Shown in pieces: positions 66 through 19,989 of a stretch of 24,144 nt of DNA. This DNA is from a virus. A program made the position numbers and the translations under genes. Each line of letters opens with the position of its first letter. The stretch's first letter is position 1. Under the pieces are notes generated by a model. That model worked only from the letters and a program-made list of their open reading frames with translations. It was not told the DNA's origin and did no database searches. The stretch spans positions 1-24,144 of IMG/VR virus record IMGVR_UViG_3300030098_000913; one strand, 5' to 3'.

Positions 66-255
66 CCTACCCTTCATTATCAAGGAATCCGACATCGAGC
101 ACGCTCATCGGTTTCTACAGAGCCGAGTAGATCGGGGAGTCACTTGTCCCCACAAACTCAAAAGACTTCTTCATAGGAGGTGGGGCTGGGAATGTTCCGG
201 TGCGACCTGCTTGAAGATCGTTCGAGATTTCCTTTCAACTAGGAGAAGCACATGA
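55..255 (+). CDS. Small hypothetical protein, 66 aa
   Basis: I do not recognise this protein. It starts MTW, has an AGGAGA SD 6 nt upstream, and follows palindrome copy 1. Its leader and first codons are repeated exactly at the start of the next gene: 27 bp at 39-65 equal 236-262. The protein is basic in its second half (RRW, HRR, TRRST) with two or three Cys. Its last ten codons run through the leader of the next gene and its TGA overlaps that gene's ATG. It could be a real early gene or the remains of one truncated when the leader was duplicated. Codon-level support is weak. Confidence 0.4.
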   Translation: MTWNLPFIIKESDIEHAHRFLQSRVDRGVTCPHKLKRLLHRRWGWECSGATCLKIVRDFLSTRRST

Positions 256-262
256 CTTGGAA
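236..262 (+). repeat. Leader repeat, copy B
   Basis: Second copy of the 27-bp leader. Just upstream, 221-235 reads TTCGAGATTTCCTTT, which looks like the usual palindrome plus pyrimidine tract with about ten bases lost from the middle of the stem-loop. Confidence 0.85.
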
Positions 263-491
263 AGCATTCAGACAACTCGTGAATCAACACGTCTTGAAGA
301 TGACTGGCGGCCTTGGCCTTCAGGATCTCGCAGACGTCCTCATCGATGACTTCTATCCGGGGCAGGATGGCTTTGACTACCACTGGGATTCACTGGCGGA
401 GGAAGCCGCGTATCACGTCCTTGAGGAGAATGGTTTCCCGATGGACGATGAGGAAGGCTTTGAAGAATACCTTCTTCTCCACTTAGACTGA
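252..491 (+). CDS. Small acidic hypothetical protein, 79 aa
   Basis: The function is unknown. The protein is acidic, with Asp/Glu-rich segments in the middle and at the C-terminus (DDEEGFEEY), and has no membrane segment or signal peptide. ATG 252 has an AGGAGA SD 6 nt upstream and overlaps the TGA of the preceding ORF (ATGA). Palindrome copy 2 follows the stop within 3 nt. Small acidic early proteins of T7-like phages are often host-takeover or anti-defence factors (for example DNA mimics), but nothing here proves that role. Confidence 0.75.
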   Translation: MTWKAFRQLVNQHVLKMTGGLGLQDLADVLIDDFYPGQDGFDYHWDSLAEEAAYHVLEENGFPMDDEEGFEEYLLLHLD

Positions 492-492
492 T

Positions 493-507
493 TCGGAGAC
501 TCTCCGA
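493..507 (+). repeat. Palindromic hairpin, copy 2
   Basis: TCGGAG-ACT-CTCCGA followed by TTTCTTCC. It sits directly after the stop of the 252-491 gene and in front of a segment without a convincing ORF. The loop differs from copy 1 (ACT against AGT) while the stem is conserved. GANTC sites start at 490 and 498. Confidence 0.8.
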
Positions 508-522
508 TTTCTTCCAACTAAC

Positions 523-626
523 GGAGGGGTATCTGGACCGGCAAGGTTCACAACGCTTAGACATGGCGGCTTGTGAAACGTCAACGCTAAGTGCCTTGCT
601 TCCGGGTTCGAGTCCCGGCCTCCCTG
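523..626 (+). ncRNA. Candidate structured RNA with a tRNA-like T-arm
   Basis: Between palindromes 2 and 3 there is no convincing ORF but dense base pairing. Positions 602-618 form a perfect T-arm: stem CCGGG/CCCGG around loop TTCGAGT. GGAGG 523-527 pairs perfectly with CCTCC 619-623, next to the T-arm like an acceptor stem. GCAAGG 541-546 pairs with CCTTGC 594-599, TTCACAA 547-553 with TTGTGAA 571-577, and CGCTTAG 554-560 with CTAAGTG 587-593 (one G-U), giving a pseudoknot. TTTT follows at 627. No normal D-arm or anticodon arm can be drawn, and at about 104 nt it is not an ordinary tRNA. TCTGGA after the 5' stem recalls the tmRNA D-loop, but no tag reading frame is evident. Alternatives: a degenerate tRNA, a captured host tRNA end, or a novel phage RNA. 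Confidence 0.4.
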
Positions 627-635
627 TTTTCTACT

Positions 636-650
636 TCGGAGACTCTCCGA
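636..650 (+). repeat. Palindromic hairpin, copy 3
   Basis: TCGGAG-ACT-CTCCGA followed by TTTCTTCCTTCC and an AGGAG SD. The start codon at 679 is 28 nt downstream. Confidence 0.8.
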
Positions 651-678
651 TTTCTTCCTTCCAACTAGGAGTATTGAA

Positions 679-966
679 ATGCAAATCCACACTGATAATC
701 TTCTCATGTTCATGTCGATGATGGAGAAGAGAGGATGGTCAATGACGTTTGTCCATACGTCCACCTTTGAACGGTTCAAGATCTCTCCGCCAGAAGGCTG
801 TACGTTGACTTTCCATGACCCGAGGGTCGCGTTGTATGAAGTCAGGCAGTACTTCGTCAGTCCAGAGAACTCCGCATTCCTCACTACGGACTGCTCCAAT
901 GAGGAGTGGGCTAAGTGGGCGGAGCATGAAATCTACTTTGAGTTCGCTACGGGAGGTGACGCATGA
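679..966 (+). CDS. Hypothetical protein, 95 aa
   Basis: The function is unknown. ATG 679 has an AGGAG SD with 8-nt spacing and follows palindrome copy 3, the usual cassette layout here. The N-terminus is Met-rich and partly hydrophobic (LLMFMSMMEKRGW) but too short and mixed for a clear membrane helix. The C-terminus (NEEWAKWAEHEIYFEF) is acidic and aromatic. The stop overlaps the next gene's start (ATGA at 963), so the two are probably co-translated. Confidence 0.75.
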   Translation: MQIHTDNLLMFMSMMEKRGWSMTFVHTSTFERFKISPPEGCTLTFHDPRVALYEVRQYFVSPENSAFLTTDCSNEEWAKWAEHEIYFEFATGGDA

Positions 967-2395: not shown

Positions 2396-2584
2396 ATGAA
2401 CGGCACCCCAATAGCGGATCGCATTCGCGTTCTATTACTTGAAGGCAGGGTTGACTTCGCAAGAGCGGTGTTTCGAAAGGCTGTCAACGAGGATCTATTC
2501 ACCGTGGATGGTCACTTCAACCTGTACGACAAGATCGCGTGCGTAGAGTTCTTTCAACTCCATGACTTGGGAGGTTTGTCATGA
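2396..2584 (+). CDS. Hypothetical protein, 62 aa
   Basis: First gene after the sigma70 promoter. ATG 2396 has a TAGGAGAA SD with suitable spacing. The sequence MNGTPIADRIRVLLLEGRVDFARAVFRKAVNEDLFTVDGHFNLYDKIACVEFF reads as a compact alpha-helical protein without known motifs. Its TGA overlaps ATG 2581 of the MKIYIW gene, so the two are probably made together. Confidence 0.72.
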   Translation: MNGTPIADRIRVLLLEGRVDFARAVFRKAVNEDLFTVDGHFNLYDKIACVEFFQLHDLGGLS

Positions 2585-2865
2585 AAATCTATATCTGGCA
2601 ACACAGTTGGGCTGGGAACATTCTCGACGGTACTCCCGTATATGAGTGGTCCTCAAACGAGAATGACATTCCGTATGTCTGCTCTGGTGAGATTAGGTTG
2701 AAGCCTTCCGAGACCCAACTCGACACCGTCAGGTTCGTTCAAGAGCATATCGTCTGGGACATCCCCAAGTCTACTTTTGCCAACTTTCCGATCGAGACCG
2801 ACATAGATATGGCGGATGCAGTCACGGAGTACGCACAAAAACAAGGCTTCTACAAGCACGACTAA
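2581..2865 (+). CDS. MKIYIW-family hypothetical protein, 94 aa
   Basis: A clear paralogue of 963-1250: both begin MKIYIWQ..W.GNI.DG.P, share ..ENDIP / ..QSDIP, have ..IVWD(I/V) about two thirds along, and end (K/M)QGFYK/R. Lengths are 94 and 95 aa and both starts use ATGA coupling. It belongs to the sigma70-driven early unit. The function is unknown. Two copies within 1.6 kb plus a third divergent one suggest expansion under selection, but that is inference. Confidence 0.8.
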   Translation: MKIYIWQHSWAGNILDGTPVYEWSSNENDIPYVCSGEIRLKPSETQLDTVRFVQEHIVWDIPKSTFANFPIETDIDMADAVTEYAQKQGFYKHD

Positions 2866-2882
2866 TCGGAGAGTCTCCGATT
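2864..2882 (+). repeat. Palindromic hairpin, copy 6 (19 bp perfect)
   Basis: AATCGGAGAGTCTCCGATT: 9-base arms around one central base, overlapping the preceding TAA. The same 19-mer occurs inside the RNA polymerase gene at 7857-7875. An SD and GTG start follow, with the start 28 nt after the core. Confidence 0.85.
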
Positions 2883-2908
2883 CCTTCCACACTTTCTAGG
2901 AGAACACA

Positions 2909-3700
2909 GTGAAACTACTAGGAACCAATAACAAACTCGACAAGCAGTCTTCCCGAGGTGAGCCATTCGTTCTCCGGGGTCTGTCCCTCGCTCCCGCTGA
3001 TCTTAGTGGGTATGAAACGTGTCCGATGCGGACTGCTGACTGCACGAAGGCGTGCATCGGGGTCAAGTCAGGGCATAACCGATTCAACCCTGCGAAGGAG
3101 GCGAAGATCAGGAAGACGAAGTTGTTCTTCGAGGATAACGAGACGTTCATGACTCAGTTATTCCGTGAGATCAATAATCTTCGGAAGTACTGTAATCGTC
3201 TCGACAAGCGTCCCGTGGTTCGTCTCAATACTTACTCGGATATTGTTTGGGAGAAGAAGCATCCAGAGATCTTCCTTGAGTTTCCTGATGTGCAGTTCTA
3301 TGACTACACGAAGATCCACCAGAGGCGGAATCTCCCAGACAACTACCATCTGACTCTCTCATACACGGGGTACAACTGGAAGGAGTGCGAGGCGTGGTTG
3401 AGTTCGGGCCGCAATGTCGCCGTCGTATTCAAGGACTGCTGGGACAATCCCCTGCCCGACAAGTGGCGAGGCTTCGATGTCGTAGACGCTGATGAGGATG
3501 ACTGTCGGTGGTTGGAAGATCCCGGCAAGATCTCAGGACTTCGCACAAAGGGGTCCGTCAAGCACGCTGGACCTTTCTTTGCGGATGCTACTGAACTCAC
3601 TGTTGGAGGTCTTCCCGTGATCTCCGGTCTTCGGGAGAAGGTCAGGACACGGTGGGAGAGGAGGGAAGTTGCATGCGAGTCAAGTGGAGCAATAAAGTAG
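2909..3700 (+). CDS. Mycobacteriophage L5 gp88-like domain protein, 263 aa
   Basis: Resembles the Pfam GP88 family seen in many phages. Hallmarks are an N-terminal G.SLAPADLSGYETCPMRTADC..AC.G..SGHNRFN and a central RLNTYSDIVWE, followed by a Y-D-Y-T-K segment. Cys38, Cys45 and Cys49 could bind metal. The family has no firmly assigned biochemical function that I know of. GTG 2909 is chosen because TAGGAG lies 5 nt upstream and the homologous cassette at 2352 uses the same spacing. It is the first large protein of the early region. Confidence 0.78.
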   Translation: MKLLGTNNKLDKQSSRGEPFVLRGLSLAPADLSGYETCPMRTADCTKACIGVKSGHNRFNPAKEAKIRKTKLFFEDNETFMTQLFREINNLRKYCNRLDKRPVVRLNTYSDIVWEKKHPEIFLEFPDVQFYDYTKIHQRRNLPDNYHLTLSYTGYNWKECEAWLSSGRNVAVVFKDCWDNPLPDKWRGFDVVDADEDDCRWLEDPGKISGLRTKGSVKHAGPFFADATELTVGGLPVISGLREKVRTRWERREVACESSGAIK

Positions 3701-5136: not shown

Positions 5137-5223
5137 AGGAATGGGATCCCTCCTCCTTCATATCCACTAAGGAATGTGGGAGGCGGTGGTCCCAAAATCA
5201 ATGTTGACACACAGGAGGTAGTC

Positions 5224-6285
5224 ATGGCAATAAGTAAAAGAGGGGATTCTTTCCAAGTTTCCGTTTCATACCGGGGGCGAAGGGTCCGAAAGGCTTTCCG
5301 CGACAGGCAGGAAGCATTGAAATATGAGGCTGAGGTCACAGCCGATATGTTGGCAGGGAGGGAACCAAGGGATTTGACTAAGAAATCTAGACGGAAGGGA
5401 GTGCCGCTTACGGTCGGGGGGATGGCTGATCACGTGTACGAGATGGAGTGGAAGTATCAGAAGTCTGCTGATCACACCTATAACAGGGCGCAGAAGGTCG
5501 TCGATTACTTTGGCGAGAGCACGCCTCTGGAATCCATTACTTCGTACTCATTGGAAGCGTATTCACTTCATCTAAGGAACGTAGAACAGAATGGTCCAGC
5601 GACGATCAACAGGAAGATGGCGATCATCAGTAAGATCCTGTCATACGCTCACAGGCATGAAGTAATCAAGTTCAAGCCCCGAGTAAACAGTCAGCGAGAA
5701 CCTGACGGACGGATGAAGTACTACACGAAGGAGGAGGAGGAAGCGATCACGAACAAGATGGTCGAGTTGAACTCCCCCAAAAACTACTTTTGTTGCCTCT
5801 GTGATTTCTTCCGCATTCTTGTTGATACAGGTATGCGTAGGGGCGAGTGTCTCAGTTTGGAGTGGGAGGATATTGACTTCAAGAAGAATCAGATCACACT
5901 CCCCGACCCGGATCAGATCAAAGCGGCGTTGCCGAGGTCGATACCGATGACTACTAGAGTCAAGAAGATCTTCACTAAGAGGCGGATAGATAAGTGCGAT
6001 CGCCGTAAGCCATTCTTATTCACTTCGCACCAAATAGATAAAGAGGTACAGAAGTTTAAAGACAAGGTATATGGTTCCGATGAACCTTATATGGATATTG
6101 AGGATGTCGCGTTGTTCCACACCTGTAGACATACGTTCATCTCTAGGCTCCTTCAGAAAGGGGTTCCGTTGACGACTGTCCGTGAACTGGCAGGACACCG
6201 AGATATCAGTACGACAATGAGATACGCTCACTTGTCACCAAACAATCATACAGATGCAATATCATTACTGGAGTCGGATGAATAA
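5224..6285 (+). CDS. int: Tyrosine recombinase (phage integrase), 353 aa
   Basis: Site-specific recombinase that would insert the phage at a host tRNA gene. Residues 1-60 look like an arm-type DNA-binding domain, 65-150 the core-binding SAM-like domain, and 165-345 the catalytic domain. Visible catalytic residues are Arg205 (TGMRRGE), His299 and Arg302 (HTCRH), His325 (LAGH) and the nucleophile Tyr334 (MRYAH). ATG 5224 is chosen because AGGAGGT sits 3 nt upstream; an upstream GTG extension is unlikely. Length is normal for P4/lambda-type integrases. The attP-like site lies 100 bp after the stop, and no excisionase is recognisable. Confidence 0.93.
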   Translation: MAISKRGDSFQVSVSYRGRRVRKAFRDRQEALKYEAEVTADMLAGREPRDLTKKSRRKGVPLTVGGMADHVYEMEWKYQKSADHTYNRAQKVVDYFGESTPLESITSYSLEAYSLHLRNVEQNGPATINRKMAIISKILSYAHRHEVIKFKPRVNSQREPDGRMKYYTKEEEEAITNKMVELNSPKNYFCCLCDFFRILVDTGMRRGECLSLEWEDIDFKKNQITLPDPDQIKAALPRSIPMTTRVKKIFTKRRIDKCDRRKPFLFTSHQIDKEVQKFKDKVYGSDEPYMDIEDVALFHTCRHTFISRLLQKGVPLTTVRELAGHRDISTTMRYAHLSPNNHTDAISLLESDE

Positions 6286-6357: not shown

Positions 6358-6449
6358 CTGTATAGAAGACACAAGGGAACGATTGGTAGCGGAGGAGGGA
6401 TTTGAACTCCATTCGCTGACAAACATCCCTACCAGTTTTTTCTATACAG
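6358..6449. repeat. Inverted repeat flanking the attP core
   Basis: CTGTATAGAA (6358-6367) and its exact reverse complement TTCTATACAG (6440-6449) lie either side of the tRNA-like core. GTTGTATAC (6345-6353) and GTTGCATAC (6458-6466) also flank it as a near-direct repeat. These are natural candidates for integrase arm-type or accessory-factor sites. Confidence 0.45.
6384..6410 (-). other. attP: Probable attP core: tRNA 3' end
   Basis: Read on the minus strand, the segment carries the end of a tRNA gene: T-loop GTTCAAAT, then CCCTC, acceptor CTCCGCT, discriminator A and CCA. No 5' half exists, and the T-stem 5' side is already mismatched (GGAG rather than GGGG), as expected where host identity ends. 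So at least 24 bp (6384-6407) probably match a host tRNA. The 3' end resembles CAU-anticodon (Met-type) tRNAs of proteobacteria. Its position just after int is the standard arrangement. Confidence 0.8.
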
Positions 6450-6492: not shown

Positions 6493-8910
6493 GTGTCTTT
6501 AGTCGTGTCCGAACATAAAAACAATCAATCAAAACTGGAAGAAGAAATGGTCTCTCTTGGGAGGGACCGTTATCACCACAAAGTCAAACGTGCGAAGGAG
6601 ACTTCACTGGAGTCAACGACAGCGGTCGGTCAACACTTACTTTCTGAATCAATCGATCTCATGAGTGAGTCTTTGAAGAGTTGGCTGCGATCCGCTGAAC
6701 ACGCTCCCGGTAAACGACATCGGGCTTATCCTTTCTTGATCGAAATCCCGGTGAAGGTTACGTCGGCGTTGACTGCTCGTTCTATTCTTGACTGCATCAG
6801 TATCGAGAGGAAGATCGCTAGCACCGCCGTCGCAATCGGGAGGCTTCTCGAAGATGAATTGAAGTTCAGAAAGATTAAATCAGAAGAACCAGCACTCTGG
6901 AATCAAATCAACAGAGTATTGGATCGCTTCAAATCACAGAAGACGAAGTCTAAGTTTATTAACAGGACTATTAAGTACCACAAAGTCGTCGTCCCTCAAT
7001 GGAGCAGGCAAGAAGCAGCCGCTGTTGGTTTAACTTGCATTGAACTGCTACGACAATCAACAGGGATTATTGAAACAGTCACGAGGAGAGACGCTCAAGG
7101 AAGATCTTATACGATCGTCAGGCCGACCGATGAGTTGATGACTTGGATGAAGAACTCCCATGAGTTCAAAGAACTTCTCAACCCCGTCTGGCTACCGATG
7201 GTGGAGACTCCGGTTGATTGGAACAATGTCTACATCGGAGGGTATCAGTCCGTTAACTACAGACGACGACCGTTGATCAAAACGCATGACTCGGCGTATC
7301 TCGAAGAGGCTGCCGGGGCTGAAATGTCAACCGTCTACGGTGCTGTAAATATGTTGCAGCGTACTCCGTACACGATCGATGGACAGATGCTTGAGGTTCT
7401 TCGACATTGTTGGGACAGTGGGCTTCCTATTGGTGGACTCCCATCTCTTGAGGATGACATCGTTCCGAACAAACCGGCGGACATCGGAACCAATAAAGAG
7501 TCGAGACGTAGATGGAGGAAGGCAGCGGCTCGAACTCACTTTGAAAACGAGAGACAGAAATCAAAACGTCTCCAAGTAATGAAGGTTCTTCATCTCGCTG
7601 ATAAGTTCATCAACGATAGTCTTTACTTTGTTCACCAGTTGGATTTCAGGGGCCGAGGTTATCCTGTTCCCTACTTCCTCCAACCTCAGGGAACGTCTTA
7701 TGTTCAGTCGCTGATGAATTTCGGTCGAGGTGAATTGCTTGATGACTCGGGGATCATGTGGCTTTACACAGCAGTAGCATCCAAGTGGGGACTAGATAAG
7801 CAGCCGTACAGAGAGCGACTTAGATGGACTGAAGACAACATTGAGATGATCCGAAGAATCGGAGAGTCTCCGATTAATGAGAAGATGTGGGCAGACGCAG
7901 ATGACCCTTGGCACTTCGCGAGGCTCTGTGTTGAAATTAATAGACTGCATAATGAAGGCGGTAAGTTCAGATCAAACCTTCCAATCAGTGTGGATGCGAC
8001 AAACCAAGGACACCAGATCTACGCAATGCTTCTAAGGGATCCTCTCGGCGGAGTACTGACAAACGTAGTGCCCGGAGACTTCCCAGAAGACTTGTATGGC
8101 CGAGTTGCTGATTCAGTGATTGAGAAGTTGAAGAGAGATGATCATCCGTATGCGGGAACATGGTTAGAGTTCGGCGTCGATAGGAAGACGACCAAGAGGC
8201 CAACAATGACGTTGACGTATGGGAGTACTTTCTTCTCATGCCGTTCATATACGACCGATTGGTTCTACGATAAGTTGAAATCAGGAGTACCTAATCCGTT
8301 CGGGGATGAGACGTACAAGCCCTGTAATTATCTTGCGGAAAAGATATGGGAGTCCATCAGCGAGGCTGTTCACTCTGCTCGGGTCGGCATGGATTGGCTG
8401 AAAGGAATAGCATCGCTTCTTGTTGACAACGCAGTGACTCCAAGATGGGTCAGCCCTCTCGGGTTCCCTGTCAAGATGCATTATGAGAACACTAATAAGT
8501 ACGCAGTCAAAACTCTAGTAGGAGGAACGCTACGCCAACATCGATTGAGAATACCTAACGGAACCACGAACAGGAGGAAGACAGTCAACGCAATCTGTCC
8601 CAACGTAATTCATGCGATCGATGGCTTGGGAGGTCTACTGGGATTGACTCTTAATAAAATGGAATCAATGGGAGTTCATGATGCAAGAGGTGTTCACGAT
8701 TCAATCGGAGTACATGCTCGAAATGTCGAAACACTACAAGCCTGTGTCAGAGAGGCAACGGTAGAAATATTTTCTGAAAATCAACTGGAAATACTGGGTA
8801 ATCAGTTTGCGGCCATGTTGCCTTCTGGAGTATCATTACCAAGCCTGCCTGAGATGGGAACCCTAGATATCGCAGATGTGCTGCGGTCTAAATACTACTT
8901 CAATCCATAA
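6493..8910 (+). CDS. T7-type single-subunit DNA-directed RNA polymerase, 805 aa
   Basis: Transcribes the middle and late phage genes. Alignment by eye to T7 gp1 (883 aa) gives Asp501 = T7 D537 and Asp736 = D812 (GVHDSIG) as metal ligands, and Arg564, Lys568, Tyr576 = R627, K631, Y639 (DRKTTKRPTMTLTYGS). DFRGRGYP near 384-391 matches DWRGRVYA. Motif A is unusual: DATNQGHQIYA where T7 has DGSCSGIQHFSA. The specificity-loop region (about 672-700) is shorter than in T7. The start is uncertain: GTG 6493 has poor spacing to CGGAG (6487-6491), GTG 6505 fits better, and ATG 6547 has GGAAGAAG before it. The coding sequence also contains the 19-bp palindrome. Confidence 0.95.
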   Translation: MSLVVSEHKNNQSKLEEEMVSLGRDRYHHKVKRAKETSLESTTAVGQHLLSESIDLMSESLKSWLRSAEHAPGKRHRAYPFLIEIPVKVTSALTARSILDCISIERKIASTAVAIGRLLEDELKFRKIKSEEPALWNQINRVLDRFKSQKTKSKFINRTIKYHKVVVPQWSRQEAAAVGLTCIELLRQSTGIIETVTRRDAQGRSYTIVRPTDELMTWMKNSHEFKELLNPVWLPMVETPVDWNNVYIGGYQSVNYRRRPLIKTHDSAYLEEAAGAEMSTVYGAVNMLQRTPYTIDGQMLEVLRHCWDSGLPIGGLPSLEDDIVPNKPADIGTNKESRRRWRKAAARTHFENERQKSKRLQVMKVLHLADKFINDSLYFVHQLDFRGRGYPVPYFLQPQGTSYVQSLMNFGRGELLDDSGIMWLYTAVASKWGLDKQPYRERLRWTEDNIEMIRRIGESPINEKMWADADDPWHFARLCVEINRLHNEGGKFRSNLPISVDATNQGHQIYAMLLRDPLGGVLTNVVPGDFPEDLYGRVADSVIEKLKRDDHPYAGTWLEFGVDRKTTKRPTMTLTYGSTFFSCRSYTTDWFYDKLKSGVPNPFGDETYKPCNYLAEKIWESISEAVHSARVGMDWLKGIASLLVDNAVTPRWVSPLGFPVKMHYENTNKYAVKTLVGGTLRQHRLRIPNGTTNRRKTVNAICPNVIHAIDGLGGLLGLTLNKMESMGVHDARGVHDSIGVHARNVETLQACVREATVEIFSENQLEILGNQFAAMLPSGVSLPSLPEMGTLDIADVLRSKYYFNP
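7857..7875 (+). repeat. Palindromic hairpin inside RNA polymerase gene, copy 8
   Basis: AATCGGAGAGTCTCCGATT, identical over 19 nt to the intergenic copy at 2864-2882. It codes IGESPI at residues 456-461, aligned without a gap to T7 AKSPL, so it is not an added peptide. Confidence 0.75.
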
Positions 8911-11887: not shown

Positions 11888-12062
11888 CTGGATATCGGAG
11901 GAAGAAGGAACCAAGATACCTCATCAGACAGTCCAGAGAGCATTCGATGCGACTCTGATCCGGCTCAAAAAGTCACTGATGGAGGATCCTTTTATCCTTT
12001 CGTACTTGAGAGACAATAACTTCAATATCCCAGAGGAAGAAGAAAAGGAAGGAGACTCATGA
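11679..12062 (+). CDS. Putative helix-turn-helix DNA-binding protein, 127 aa
   Basis: Residues 60-100 (GELATWRQIADWISEEEGTKIPHQTVQRAFDATLIRLKKSL) read like a helix-turn-helix of the sigma region 4 type (TWRQIADWI..., ...HQTVQRAFDATLIRLKK). The C-terminus is very acidic (PEEEEKEGDS). The N-terminal 70 residues overlap the lysozyme gene in its +1 frame and are polar and low in complexity. GGAGGT (11669-11674) supports ATG 11679 or 11685. The TGA overlaps the DNA polymerase ATG. It could regulate transcription or adapt a host or phage polymerase; the exact role is unknown. Confidence 0.65.
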   Translation: MKMSNKKSTQKESSVPTGTDGAETDHGKLGHARITGGRWDRGKLLQKDTGKPCPIVLKNGELATWRQIADWISEEEGTKIPHQTVQRAFDATLIRLKKSLMEDPFILSYLRDNNFNIPEEEEKEGDS

Positions 12063-13870
12063 ACGTAGTTATATTTGATATTGAAACCAACGCGATCGCT
12101 GACTTCAACACCCTGCTCGGACTGGAGAAAATCCACTGCATAGCAATCGCATCCCCCGGAGGAGACCCTGAGATCCTTCCTACTGAGGAAGCCTTGGAAC
12201 AACTCCGTCTCGCAGACGTTATTGTCGGACATAATATTCAGGACTTTGATATCAGAGCCATCCAACGCCTATACCCTGACTGGAAGCCTGAGGGCTGTGT
12301 CAGAGATACGTTGATCATGTCGAGGATGCTCTGGCCTGATGTCCAGAATGAAGATTGGCAGATCCCAGACTTCCCTCGGAATCTCATAGGTCGTCAATCT
12401 TTGAAGGCTTGGGGTGTTCGACTCGGTATTCATAAGGGCGATTTCGGAGAGTCTCAGAATTGGGACGAGTTCACTCCAGAGATGGCTGAGTACTGTATTC
12501 AAGATGTCCGGGTTACTCAGGCTCTCTGGGAGAGGATTGAGAAGGAGAACCCCCCGGAAAACCCCACAGTGCTGGAACACGAATTCGCGGAAATCGTCTC
12601 ACGACAAGAGAGAAACGGGTTCGCTTTCGACGTAGACGCCGCTAGAAAACTCCACAGTGAACTACTCGGTGAGAAGGACTCACTACTGAAGGAGTTGGAA
12701 TCTCGTTTTCCAGCGCAAGTAATCAAGATGAAGACCCCGAAGTACTGGGAAGATCCAGTGACGAAGGAACGCTACCGGGTGAAGAAGGACGCTCCCAGTA
12801 AAGTACAGAAGATCCTTGTCCGGGGAGAACTTAAAACGAAAGAGATACCGTTCAACCCCGGCAGTCGAGACCAGATCGCTAATGGACTTATTAATAAGTA
12901 CGGTTGGAAGCCTACTGAGTTCACTGGGGAAGGGAAGCCGAAGGTAGACGAGAGCGTTCTGAAGGAGATGGAATACGAAGAGGCTAAACTGCTGATCCGA
13001 TATTTGACTATCGTTAAACGACTCGGACAGATCAGTGACGGCAGGAATGCTTGGATCCGTCTGGAGAAAGAAGGCCGCATCCATGGTCGAGTCAACCCCT
13101 GCGGAGCCGTGACCGCTAGATGTACCCACGCTCGCCCGAATGTGGCACAGGTTCCAAGGGTAGGAGCATTGTGGGGAGAAGAGTGTAGAAGTCTGTTCAC
13201 TGTCCCTGAGGGGTATGTCCTTCTCGGAGTGGACGCTAGTGGATTGGAACTCCGGTGTCTTGCTCACTACACCCACCCCCTCGACAAGGGAAGGTACACG
13301 AACGAGATTCTTGAGGGCGACATTCACACAGCCAATCAAGAAGCGGCGGGCCTTGAAGACAGGAATGATGCGAAGACTTTTATCTACGCCCTACTCTATG
13401 GAGCGGGAGATCTTCGGATCGGTTCCATCGTCGGGGGAGGACAGCGAGAAGGTAAGGCTTTGAAGAATACTTTCTTCTCTCGGATGCCCGCACTCAAGAA
13501 GGTTCAGGAGGGAGTCAAGTACAGACTGAAGACTCAAAACTACCTGACCGGAATCGACAGCAGGAAACTTAGAATTCGATCTGAGCATTCTGCCCTTAAT
13601 ACTCTGCTACAATCAGCAGGGGCAATCGCTATGAAATATGCGACCTGTATTCTTGACAGTAAAATCAGAAGTCATGGATGGACTGATGATGATGTCATGC
13701 AAGTAGCCCACATTCACGACGAGATTCAACTTCAAGTACGCAAGGAGATCGCGGAAGATGTCGGGAAACTTTCAATACAGTCCATACAAGAGTCTGGGAA
13801 AGTCCTCGGATTCCGATGTCCCCTCGACGGGGAATACAAAGTCGGAAGAAACTGGGCGGAGACTCACTGA
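12059..13870 (+). CDS. Family A DNA polymerase with 3'-5' exonuclease, T7 gp5-like, 603 aa
   Basis: Replicative polymerase. Exonuclease motifs: DIET (Asp7, Glu9), GHNIQDFD (57-64), YCIQD (Tyr145, Asp149). Polymerase motifs: A DASGLELRCLAH (Asp392), B RNDAKTFIYALLYGAG (Arg435, Lys439, Tyr443, Tyr447), C HIHDEIQ (Asp554). Tyr443 takes the place of T7 Tyr526 (E. coli Pol I position 762). The protein is about 100 aa shorter than T7 gp5. Much of the difference falls between residues 205 and 265, the thumb region where T7 carries the thioredoxin-binding loop, so that loop is reduced or absent. ATG 12059 is coupled to the preceding TGA. Confidence 0.95.
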   Translation: MNVVIFDIETNAIADFNTLLGLEKIHCIAIASPGGDPEILPTEEALEQLRLADVIVGHNIQDFDIRAIQRLYPDWKPEGCVRDTLIMSRMLWPDVQNEDWQIPDFPRNLIGRQSLKAWGVRLGIHKGDFGESQNWDEFTPEMAEYCIQDVRVTQALWERIEKENPPENPTVLEHEFAEIVSRQERNGFAFDVDAARKLHSELLGEKDSLLKELESRFPAQVIKMKTPKYWEDPVTKERYRVKKDAPSKVQKILVRGELKTKEIPFNPGSRDQIANGLINKYGWKPTEFTGEGKPKVDESVLKEMEYEEAKLLIRYLTIVKRLGQISDGRNAWIRLEKEGRIHGRVNPCGAVTARCTHARPNVAQVPRVGALWGEECRSLFTVPEGYVLLGVDASGLELRCLAHYTHPLDKGRYTNEILEGDIHTANQEAAGLEDRNDAKTFIYALLYGAGDLRIGSIVGGGQREGKALKNTFFSRMPALKKVQEGVKYRLKTQNYLTGIDSRKLRIRSEHSALNTLLQSAGAIAMKYATCILDSKIRSHGWTDDDVMQVAHIHDEIQLQVRKEIAEDVGKLSIQSIQESGKVLGFRCPLDGEYKVGRNWAETH

Positions 13871-15968: not shown

Positions 15969-17501
15969 ATGATTGAACAAGGATCAGTCGCGGCAATGTA
16001 CGCGAAATGTGAGACCCAGCGGTCTTCCTATTTGGAACGAGGCCGGGACTCCTCTCGTCTTACTATTGCGACCCTTCTACCCGACGAGGGTAAACAAGGG
16101 TCTAAACGCTTCGCTACCCCGTATCAATCTGTTGGTGCTAGAGGCGTCAATAATCTGGCGTCTGCCCTTCTGCTGTCTCTCCTCCCACCGAATTCTCCTT
16201 TCTTCCGTCTAGTTATTGATGAACGGGAAAAGGCGAAGATGGCTGCGATCGACCCTAAGATACAAACAGAAGTAGAATCCTCCCTCTCTGATATCGAAAG
16301 GGCGGTCGCACGAGAAATAGAAGTAAACAACATCCGCGTGGGTACATTTGAGGCCATACGGCATCTTGTCGTAACGGGCAATGCCCTTTTATATATGCCT
16401 GACGAAGGTTCCATGCGGGTGATTCACTTGGATCGATATATCGTCAAACGTGATCCTATGGGGAACCCCCTTCATATCATTATGAAAGAAACGGTTGCTC
16501 CTGCGGTACTCCCCCCGGAGATCCGCCAATACGTTGAGGCTAATCTCGCTGAGTATGAGGAGACCTGTGATGTCTTCACTATGCAGACCACCCTTCCAGA
16601 CGGAAAAGTCGAAGTGGTGCAAGAGGTTAAAGGAAGGATTATTGAGGAGACTAGACAGACGTTCCAGAAGGGTCGTTCTCCTTTCATTGCTCTCCGCATG
16701 ATGCGGGTAGATGGAGAGGACTACGGTCGAGGATACGTCGAACAATACTACGGAGACCTCGCGTCTCTTGAGGGTCTTACTAAGGCTATCGTTGAGGGTG
16801 CTGCCGCATCCTCCAAGGTTCTTTTCCTCGTCAATCCCAATGGGACTACACGGGCGAAGACTCTCGCTGAGAGTCCAAACGGAGCGATCAGGGAAGGAAG
16901 TGCTGCTGATGTCAGTGTTCTGCAAACTAACAAGTCAAATGATTTCTCAGTTTCAATGTCAGCAATGCAGCAGATTAATGAGCGTCTTTCGTATGCGTTC
17001 CTACTCACCGAGTCAACTATTCGTAATGCGGATCGTGTCACAGCCGAAGAAGTAAGGCTCGTCACTCAGTCCATTGAACGACAGTTGGGTGGTATTTACA
17101 GCGTACTGAGTCAGGAGTTCCAACTTCCGCTCGTCAATCGAATTATGGATCGGATGGAGAAGAAAAAGAAACTCCCCAAGATCCCAAGGGACAAAATCAC
17201 TCCCGCCATCGTCACCGGCATTGATGCTCTGGGGCGAGGAAACGATCTAAACCGTCTCGACGTCTACTTGTCTGGTATCGCTCAGGTACTGGGACCAGAG
17301 GCTTTGGGACAATACATTAATATCAGAGAATACATGGACCGCCGTGCGTCTGCATTAGGCATCGACACGGAAGGTCTTGTACGAACAGAAGAAGAAATTG
17401 CTGCTATGATGCAACAGTCTCAGCAACAGGCGATGGCCGAGCAGATGGGACCGAGTGCAGTAAATGCGATTTCTAAACAAATGGAGAATATGAATGGCTG
17501 A
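15969..17501 (+). CDS. Portal (head-tail connector) protein, T7 gp8-like, 510 aa
   Basis: Forms the dodecameric ring at the packaging vertex and nucleates head assembly. Characteristic podovirus features are an N-terminal ..YAKCETQRSSYLERGRDSSRLTIATLLPDE, SVGARGVNNLASALLLSLLPPNSPFF, a central PFIALRMMRVDGEDYGRGYVEQYYGDL, and ERLSYAFLLTESTIRNADRVTAEEVR near 340-365. Length is close to T7 gp8 (536 aa). ATG 15969 follows AAGGG. The stop overlaps the scaffold start by 8 nt. Confidence 0.94.
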   Translation: MIEQGSVAAMYAKCETQRSSYLERGRDSSRLTIATLLPDEGKQGSKRFATPYQSVGARGVNNLASALLLSLLPPNSPFFRLVIDEREKAKMAAIDPKIQTEVESSLSDIERAVAREIEVNNIRVGTFEAIRHLVVTGNALLYMPDEGSMRVIHLDRYIVKRDPMGNPLHIIMKETVAPAVLPPEIRQYVEANLAEYEETCDVFTMQTTLPDGKVEVVQEVKGRIIEETRQTFQKGRSPFIALRMMRVDGEDYGRGYVEQYYGDLASLEGLTKAIVEGAAASSKVLFLVNPNGTTRAKTLAESPNGAIREGSAADVSVLQTNKSNDFSVSMSAMQQINERLSYAFLLTESTIRNADRVTAEEVRLVTQSIERQLGGIYSVLSQEFQLPLVNRIMDRMEKKKKLPKIPRDKITPAIVTGIDALGRGNDLNRLDVYLSGIAQVLGPEALGQYINIREYMDRRASALGIDTEGLVRTEEEIAAMMQQSQQQAMAEQMGPSAVNAISKQMENMNG

Positions 17502-18819: not shown

Positions 18820-18890
18820 AAACCTCAATTCTCCAAGACAAACCTCAACTTTGTTAACCTAGTTAAACAATTTTGAAGGAGTTAAACAAT
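18820..18890 (+). repeat. Short repeats in capsid leader
   Basis: AAACCTCAA occurs at 18820-18828 and 18840-18848 (20-bp spacing). AGTTAAACAAT occurs at 18861-18871 and 18880-18890, flanking the SD. TTGTTAACCTAGTTAAACAA (18851-18870) is an imperfect inverted repeat. A phage promoter is expected here (T7 has phi10), but I cannot define one. Confidence 0.4.
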
Positions 18891-19989
18891 GGCTTATTAT
18901 GGAGCAGATCCGTCACGTCTCGGTCAGGCTAACCTGACTGGTGATGCTGACGCACTTTTTCTGAAAGTCTTCGCTGGTGAAGTACTCACCACGTTTGAAG
19001 CAAATAATGTTATGATGCCTCTGCACCGTGTGCGGACCATCACTAGTGGTAAGACTGCATCTTTCCCGGTCACGGGCGTTGCAGCGGCTAAGTATCATAC
19101 CCCCGGCGACAGCCTGTTCGGTGATGATAATGAAGATGGCAACCCCCTGTACCTCTCTCAGGTCAAGCACAATGAGCGTTTGATCGCAATCGACGGTGTT
19201 CTCACTGCCTCGGCATTCCTCGCGGAAATCGACGAAGCAAAGAATCACTATGAGGTGCGTTCGATTTATTCCACGGAAATCGGGCGACAGTTGGCTTACA
19301 CCGCCGACAAGAACCTGATCCGTACTGTCATCGCGGGTGCGCGCTCAACTACTGACCGTTTCGGTGCTACCACTGCTGATGGCGTAAGCACTTATGGTGG
19401 TGCTGTCATCAACATGGGAACGACTGACGGCGGAGGCAACGAAGTCATCACCTCGACTAAGGTCGCTGATGGTGCTGCTGCTACTGGAGCCACTCTCGTC
19501 TCTGGTCTCTTCTTGGCCGCAGAACTGATGGATTCCAAGAACGTGCCGGATCAAGATCGCTTCTGCCTCCTGCCGCCTGCGGAATACTACAAGTTGGTCA
19601 ACGAGAACAAGGATGCGATCAACCGAGATTACAACCCGGACGGAAACGGTTCCGTCGCTGCGGGTGAGATCCTGTCGGTCGCGGGTATCCGCATTCTCAA
19701 GAGCAACCACGTTCCTAGTACCAACGAAGCCGGTACGATTCACGACGATCCCGGCATCAACAACAACGTCTTTGATTCTTCCGGATCCGCTGGTTACTCA
19801 GCAGACTTCGGTGAGACCAAGGGCATCGTCTTCCAGATGGAAGGTGTAGGCACGGTCAAGTTGCTTGATCTCGCTATGGAGTCTGAGTACTACATGGAGC
19901 GTCTCGGTACGATGCTTATGGCTCGCTACGCGATGGGCCACGGCGTCCTGCGTGAAGAGGCTTGCATGGAACTGATCGTCACTGACTGA
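18889..19989 (+). CDS. Major capsid protein, T7 gp10-like, 366 aa
   Basis: Builds the HK97-fold head shell. Close to T7 gp10A: LTGDADALFLKVFAGEVLTTFEANNV (T7 DPLALFLKVFGGEVLTAFARTSV), HRVRTITSGKTASFPVTG, YHTPGDSL, HNERLIAIDGVLTASAFLAEIDEAKNHYEVRSIYSTEIGRQLA, and ILKSNHVP later. Length is near T7 (345 aa). ATG 18889 has GAAGGAG 8 nt upstream. Codon use seems more regular than in neighbours, as expected for the most abundant protein. A terminator follows. Confidence 0.96.
   Translation: MAYYGADPSRLGQANLTGDADALFLKVFAGEVLTTFEANNVMMPLHRVRTITSGKTASFPVTGVAAAKYHTPGDSLFGDDNEDGNPLYLSQVKHNERLIAIDGVLTASAFLAEIDEAKNHYEVRSIYSTEIGRQLAYTADKNLIRTVIAGARSTTDRFGATTADGVSTYGGAVINMGTTDGGGNEVITSTKVADGAAATGATLVSGLFLAAELMDSKNVPDQDRFCLLPPAEYYKLVNENKDAINRDYNPDGNGSVAAGEILSVAGIRILKSNHVPSTNEAGTIHDDPGINNNVFDSSGSAGYSADFGETKGIVFQMEGVGTVKLLDLAMESEYYMERLGTMLMARYAMGHGVLREEACMELIVTD

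Follow-up and report, generated by a model that had tools for sequence, protein, structure and literature searches.

The stretch of DNA analyzed here, referred to below as the window, is a single IMG/VR virus record of 24,144 bases from a marine phage. Gene reading, together with DNA similarity to named phage genes, marks this phage as a T7-like podovirus with an integrase, a DNA polymerase, portal and capsid genes, and a single-subunit RNA polymerase that is 53–67% identical to its closest counterparts in the viral collection (Table 1). The element under study (523–626) lies between two codirectional open reading frames (ORFs), 252–491 and 679–966, starting 31 nt past the stop codon of the first and ahead of the leader of the second, and it is present as a single copy in its own record. 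As the first-pass annotation had described, it is bounded by two palindromes and no good ORF takes its place. The longest plus-strand ORF at the locus (563–721, 52 amino acids) was considered as a coding alternative; it runs into the gene that follows and lacks an evident ribosome-binding site.

Table 1. Coordinates of the features discussed in the text, in window positions.
Feature	Position	Strand	Remarks
Palindrome TTCGGAGACTCTCCGA	492–507	+	upstream border; resembles a terminator hairpin, with a T-rich tail
Acceptor-like stem, 5′ strand GGAGG	523–527	+	sequence and fold; 521–527 gives seven positions with one C–C mismatch
D-arm-like GGU / loop AUCUGG / ACC	528–539	+	minimum-energy fold; includes TCTGGA (532–537)
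Helix A, 5′ strand GGCAAGG	540–546	+	partner 594–600
Helix B, 5′ strand, bulge TTCACAA	547–553	+	partner 571–577
Helix C, 5′ strand CGCTTAG	554–560	+	partner 587–593
Helix B, 3′ strand TTGTGAA	571–577	+	all pairs Watson–Crick
Helix C, 3′ strand CTAAGTG	587–593	+	one G–U
Helix A, 3′ strand CCTTGCT	594–600	+	one G–U
T-arm CCGGG-TTCGAGT-CCCGG	602–618	+	CCGGG 602–606, loop TTCGAGT 607–613, CCCGG 614–618
Acceptor-like stem, 3′ strand CCTCC	619–623	+
Second palindrome	635–650	+	downstream border, before gene 679–966
Near-identical 26-nt copies (25/26)	454–479 and 13454–13479		end of small early gene; DNA polymerase gene
Copies of the repeated palindrome	16–31, 492–507, 635–650, 2351–2366, 2865–2880, 7858–7873		further, weaker copies in the window
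Integrase	5176–6285
Single-subunit RNA polymerase	6493–8910		polymerase name from reading
DNA polymerase	12059–13870		similarity/reading
Portal	15969–17501		similarity/reading
Capsid	18889–19989		similarity/reading

Direct reading of the sequence confirms the parts that had been described for the element. The T-arm is perfect, a 5-bp closing stem abuts it, and a TCTGGA follows the 5′ strand of that stem. The strand credited with three pairing parts spans 540–560 and divides into three segments of 7 nt each, which form helices A, B, and C with their respective partners. With pseudoknots disallowed, the minimum-energy fold of 520–630 is a four-way, cloverleaf-like junction, the arms of which are the closing stem, a 3-bp D-arm-like stem, the T-arm, and a long arm in which helices A and C are interrupted by a 7-nt bulge. 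A T-arm with a consensus T-loop is placed beside an acceptor stem, as in tRNA, although this stem has 5 bp rather than 7. The 3′ strand of the stem is followed by a T-rich stretch.

The first-pass annotation had proposed that the three pairings together create a pseudoknot. Residues 593 and 594 are adjacent, but helix B in its entirety lies between 554 and 546, with which they pair, and with a linker of 0 nt the simultaneous formation of A, B, and C is doubtful. Judged from this geometry, the three helices can hardly coexist, since the arrangement would be sterically very tight: with A stacked on C, the bulge would have no linker for seven pairs, and with A stacked on B, helix C would have to open or bend sharply. 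Helices B and C both have complete or almost complete pairing, and the computed energies of the two combinations are close (−13.5 kcal/mol for A+C and −11.8 kcal/mol for A+B, a difference of 1.7 kcal/mol), which leaves room for two alternative folds. On geometric grounds, a full pseudoknot is therefore less likely than a partial one or an arm with two states.

How readily such parts arise by chance was assessed by tests devised after the fact. A strict descriptor, comprising a perfect 5-bp T-arm, a tRNA-type T-loop, and an abutting all-Watson–Crick 5-bp closing stem, is matched once in the window. Of 300 dinucleotide shuffles of the complete window, 3 contain a match, and the 235,814 bases of relatives L002–L022 contain none, although two T-arms occur there without the stem. 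The central arm alone is equaled or bettered in folding by 19 of 1000 shuffles. The bulge is complementary to the arm loop over all 7 nt, a result that 70 of 20,000 shuffled loops equal. The parts are unlikely by chance, at about 0.01 for the T-arm with its stem, 0.02 for the arm, and 0.004 for the bulge–loop pairing. The total fold energy by itself would not convince, as 48 of 1000 shuffles of the whole element fold at least as well (17 of 200 in a separate run, z −1.5); the case for the element lies in a T-arm of tRNA type, accompanied by its partner strand, and in the neatly abutting 7-7-7 pairing. These figures also bear on the suggestion that the T-arm-like hairpin is fortuitous and has a terminator or regulatory function only, with no tRNA mimicry. 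The modest energy advantage of the whole element over shuffles would agree with such a hairpin, as would the T-rich stretch after CCTCC and the fact that the element was picked in the first-pass annotation from among many windows, but we consider it quite improbable given that an exact T-loop consensus, a five-pair T-stem, and an abutting stem are found jointly in so few shuffles.

Rather than a functional tRNA, the element is probably a small RNA or a processing mark. The earlier statement that it is not a normal tRNA agrees with ARAGORN, which reports 0 genes in the window, and with Rfam, where the tRNA match is limited to the T-arm. At curated thresholds, Rfam reports neither tRNA nor tmRNA in the window, and with E values up to 10 only T-arm fragments match. 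A canonical tRNA was rejected on a score of 11.8 bits against a gathering threshold of 29 for RF00005, again for the T-arm only and with no anticodon stem-loop recognized. Nor was an anticodon seen in the central arm: apart from the T-arm, the minimum-energy fold shows no 5-bp stem capped by a loop of 7 nt. The likening to a reduced tmRNA, by contrast, did not survive. Only one tmRNA model, tmRNA_permuted, matches at E values up to 10, with 7.3 bits against a gathering threshold of 47 and over the T-arm only, and among the ORFs of at least 20 amino acids touching 492–678 none would fit as a tag frame; with ARAGORN negative and Rfam negative at its thresholds, tmRNA was set aside as a candidate. 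What stands of the original interpretation is that an intergenic stretch, structured and apparently non-coding, has a tRNA-like end.

Integrase-bearing phages of this kind often integrate in tRNA genes, and the T-arm could in principle be an attP copied from a host tRNA, as the phage encodes an integrase. This origin is, however, highly improbable. The T-arm and seven acceptor bases (a 24-mer) have 0 exact matches in a genome collection of 84,980 species, and a better candidate adjoins the integrase gene, namely 24 nt at 6384–6407 on the minus strand, which are identical to tRNA 3′ ends in at least 117 stretches, most of which have alphaproteobacterial titles. ARAGORN, run on 80 of these stretches, identified 73 as tRNA-Met(CAT) and left 7 uncalled in the short stretch supplied. 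From its sequence, 6384–6407 is a candidate attP of the phage and, as it matches alphaproteobacterial tRNAs, the host is probably an alphaproteobacterium.

Nothing resembling the full form of the element was found elsewhere in the collections searched. No homologue was returned by blastn of window 400–760 against phages or of 515–630 against plasmids, by DNA comparison with four records, or by a scan of six records with R1, the model of the minihelix class described below. A T-loop pattern matched in 4 of 10 relatives, none of the matches being noted as a homologue and the one in L012 looking like an attP. At about 5799–5835 of L012, near the integrase of this relative, the reverse complement resembles a tRNA 3′ end and is probably its attP. 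Searches with neighboring genes found no relative for 679–966 and 963–1250, and yielded L236 and L237 for 2909–3700. The closest relative of the region, L236, aligns at 84% over window 239–453 and 2581–3606 but lacks the element, running directly on into other genes at that point; by this comparison, the element is accessory. Position 453 is the last with homology to L236, and a 26-nt copy (25/26) of the phage's own DNA polymerase gene starts at 454, which indicates that the region has been rearranged. The element may have arrived with that rearrangement.

The bordering palindromes belong to a repeat of the form TTCGGAGA(G/C)TCTCCGATT, with an arm also written TCTCCGA, which is found mostly between genes in the window. 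Copies within one genome are alike. The L236 counterpart, TTCGGGGATTCCCCGATT / TTCGGGGATTCCCCGA, is likewise mostly intergenic and has both arms altered together relative to the window version, and relative L015 has 12 copies. The repeat may be an operator, a terminator hairpin, or part of a promoter.

Other tRNA-like stretches were found in phages. In the viral collection, the 19-mer GGTTCGAGTCCCGGCCTCC is matched exactly at two loci, L028 and L029, both of which have, by reading, a GGGAG-type partner strand upstream, and neither of which is a tRNA according to ARAGORN; nine loci given to this program yielded no tRNA. A blastn search of named phages with 592–626 returned 401 records, largely tRNAs among the matches listed, and led to unannotated cases. 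A gapped pattern limited to GGAGG/CCTCC acceptors gave 10 stretches, three of which (L030, L033, and L034) lie within tRNA clusters, while the remaining seven (five distinct sequences) are ARAGORN-negative, tRNA-like, and of mixed quality, and by eye have no arm in common with the window element. In Klebsiella T7-like phages, an element with the acceptor TGGTCAG/CTGACCA and a T-arm is located between the endolysin and primase genes. This element (L040, L228–L235) is conserved but mostly unannotated and has 145 records matching over at least 80% of the query. Five of its nine aligned sequences were given to ARAGORN and were negative, as was L040, and changes among the nine are too few for a test of the stems.

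The many odd tRNA-like stretches in phages, as well as the rearranged state of the region, where homology to L236 stops at 453/454 and the 25/26 polymerase-gene copy starts, would suit a decayed or recombined tRNA remnant, the 3′ half of which was acquired by recombination with the remainder paired by chance. Such a remnant is nevertheless unlikely, because the 5′ partner strands are intact, the arm is not readily explained by chance, and the T-arm with its seven acceptor bases lacks an exact match in the 84,980-species collection.

A class of shorter elements of about 42 nt, which we call minihelices, is apparently undescribed and occurs in unrelated phages, among them Streptomyces, Mycobacterium, and uncultured phages; a literature search, with little coverage of subscription papers and preprints, found none naming these RNAs. 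When Mycobacterium phage Konstantine supplied a 42-nt query, 174 records gave matches, 141 of which covered at least 80% of the query, and the loci used were L170, L171, and L172 (NC_011292, NC_054672, and NC_042033) and the IMG/VR loci L173–L227. Each minihelix has a 5-bp acceptor, an 11-nt linker that is usually ACTGGCAGACA, a 6-bp T-stem, a 7-nt T-loop, and a GG-bearing D-like strand. In an alignment of 24 sequences from Konstantine (20000–68952), Streptomyces phage Endor1, and Send513 (22000–71547), 99.2% of 264 cells are paired, 10 of 11 pairs are changed on both sides, and 83 cells carry double changes where shuffling gives 24.1 ± 4.0, none of 500 shuffles reaching 83, although these figures are inflated by the use of a pairing criterion in picking the sequences. 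Sliding the partner strand lowers the pairing to 33–53%. A second test, free of the pairing bias, used a pattern fixing only the linker end and the T-loop. It matched 69 places in 55 viral contigs, with all five acceptor pairs present in 66 of them; the same holds for 36 of the 39 distinct sequences, which have 18 different acceptor sequences, whereas a control in which the 5′ strand of one member was combined with the 3′ strand of another gave five pairs in 145 of 1482 combinations. Judged by length, some of these contigs seem to be phages that had already supplied training sequences.

Rfam, run on the three aligned phage records, reported no such family and GOLLD RNA alone, the latter in Mycobacterium phage Send513 (L172, 29206–29666, 180.4 bits). 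In these three records, model R1 (E up to 0.1) finds 29 places (7, 9, and 13 each), of which 28 score 38–69 bits over positions 1–43 and one scores 23 bits. The gene tables show no gene overlapping 26 of the 29. For 28 of them an upstream gene is listed, and 23 of these begin 5–20 nt past its stop codon; the direction is that of the following gene. This placement fits a role at message ends, or mRNA punctuation. The window element was rejected as a member of the class, as R1 matches it at model positions 18–34 only (20.1 bits, E 0.022), that is, at the T-arm rather than over the full length; L028 and L029 also match at the T-arm only.

Our tentative preference, possible rather than probable, is that the element is an accessory tRNA-like RNA without an anticodon, which is recognized by host tRNA-processing enzymes and at which the early transcript is cut. 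Its ends would constitute the acceptor/D/T half of a tRNA, with the acceptor stem stacked on the T stem and the GG of the D-loop perhaps docking on the T-loop, while the anticodon arm would be replaced by a longer arm with two competing helices (A+C or A+B), an added and possibly switchable module. If transcribed as part of an early operon, this tRNA-like half would be recognized by host RNase P on the 5′ side and by a 3′ nuclease after CCTCC, and cutting between genes 252–491 and 679–966 would release a small stable RNA. This proposal is favored by the scarcity of the T-arm with stem, the arm, and the bulge–loop pairing among shuffles, by the intergenic position, the lack of a credible ORF of its own, and the cloverleaf-like junction with GG in the D-loop, and, by analogy, by the minihelices that follow stop codons and the Klebsiella element between endolysin and primase. 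According to an excerpt of PMC11143913, RNase P accepts tRNA-like structures (4.5S RNA, 10Sa RNA, and TYMV RNA) and cuts some polycistronic mRNAs. Several observations disfavor the proposal: the searches gave no homologue and hence no covariation, the closest relative of the region is without the element, the whole-element fold goes only modestly beyond shuffles, the acceptor stem of 5 bp (7 with a mismatch) is below the 7 bp of tRNA, the minihelix covariance model matches the T-arm only, and the adjoining terminator-like palindromes could alone separate the transcripts.

The released RNA could itself be a decoy or regulator, processed as a tRNA and then binding a host factor (a tRNA nuclease, EF-Tu, SmpB, or a tRNA-sensing defense protein would be candidate targets) or base-pairing through the switchable arm. 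An acceptor/D/T half in which a structured arm has replaced the anticodon arm would be appropriate for such a molecule, as would its single copy and its accessory presence, which counter-defense genes would also show. We regard this as not very likely, since no target was identified, the sequence offers nothing that separates a decoy from a processing role, and the multi-copy minihelices elsewhere suggest a role in cis. A broader form of the processing proposal is that unrelated phages punctuate their mRNAs with anticodon-less tRNA-like elements, cut by host RNase P and tRNA 3′ enzymes, and that the window holds an elaborated version in which flipping of the arm might switch cutting; in this general form we find it doubtful.

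If the element is real, a small phage would have retained the half of a tRNA recognized by host enzymes and swapped the decoding half for a different RNA module. Mitochondria cut their messages at tRNAs, a principle known as tRNA punctuation. Together with the multi-copy minihelices, the element raises the testable question of whether phages cut polycistronic messages using host RNase P. Such RNAs are missed by standard annotation.

Compared with known systems, the element shares with canonical tRNA the T-arm and the four-way junction, but its acceptor has 5 bp (7 with the mismatch) instead of 7, and no anticodon stem-loop is recognized. Its likeness to tmRNA comprises an acceptor and T-arm, a reduced D-arm with a TCTGGA-like stretch, which is a tmRNA motif, a long arm replacing the anticodon arm, and a possible pseudoknot; however, tmRNA is about 350 nt long, while the element has about 100 nt and no tag reading frame is seen in it. 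The mascRNA/menRNA family (RF01684), a tRNA-like RNA of animals that RNase P and RNase Z release, is also without an anticodon and matches at the T-arm, but only there, the element scoring 14.8 bits against 42.5. With the Klebsiella element (L040), it has in common a T7-like phage, an intergenic position, a T-arm with acceptor, and a negative ARAGORN result, whereas the Klebsiella element has a 7-bp acceptor, a short central part, and 145 records, with no sequence relation seen outside the T-arm. Like the minihelices, finally, it is intergenic, has no Rfam match, and combines abutting acceptor and T stems with a GG-bearing D-like strand, although they are 42–43 nt long, have a 6-bp T-stem and no central arm, and number 7–13 model matches per record. 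The window element consists of the same parts as the minihelices, arranged around a different center.
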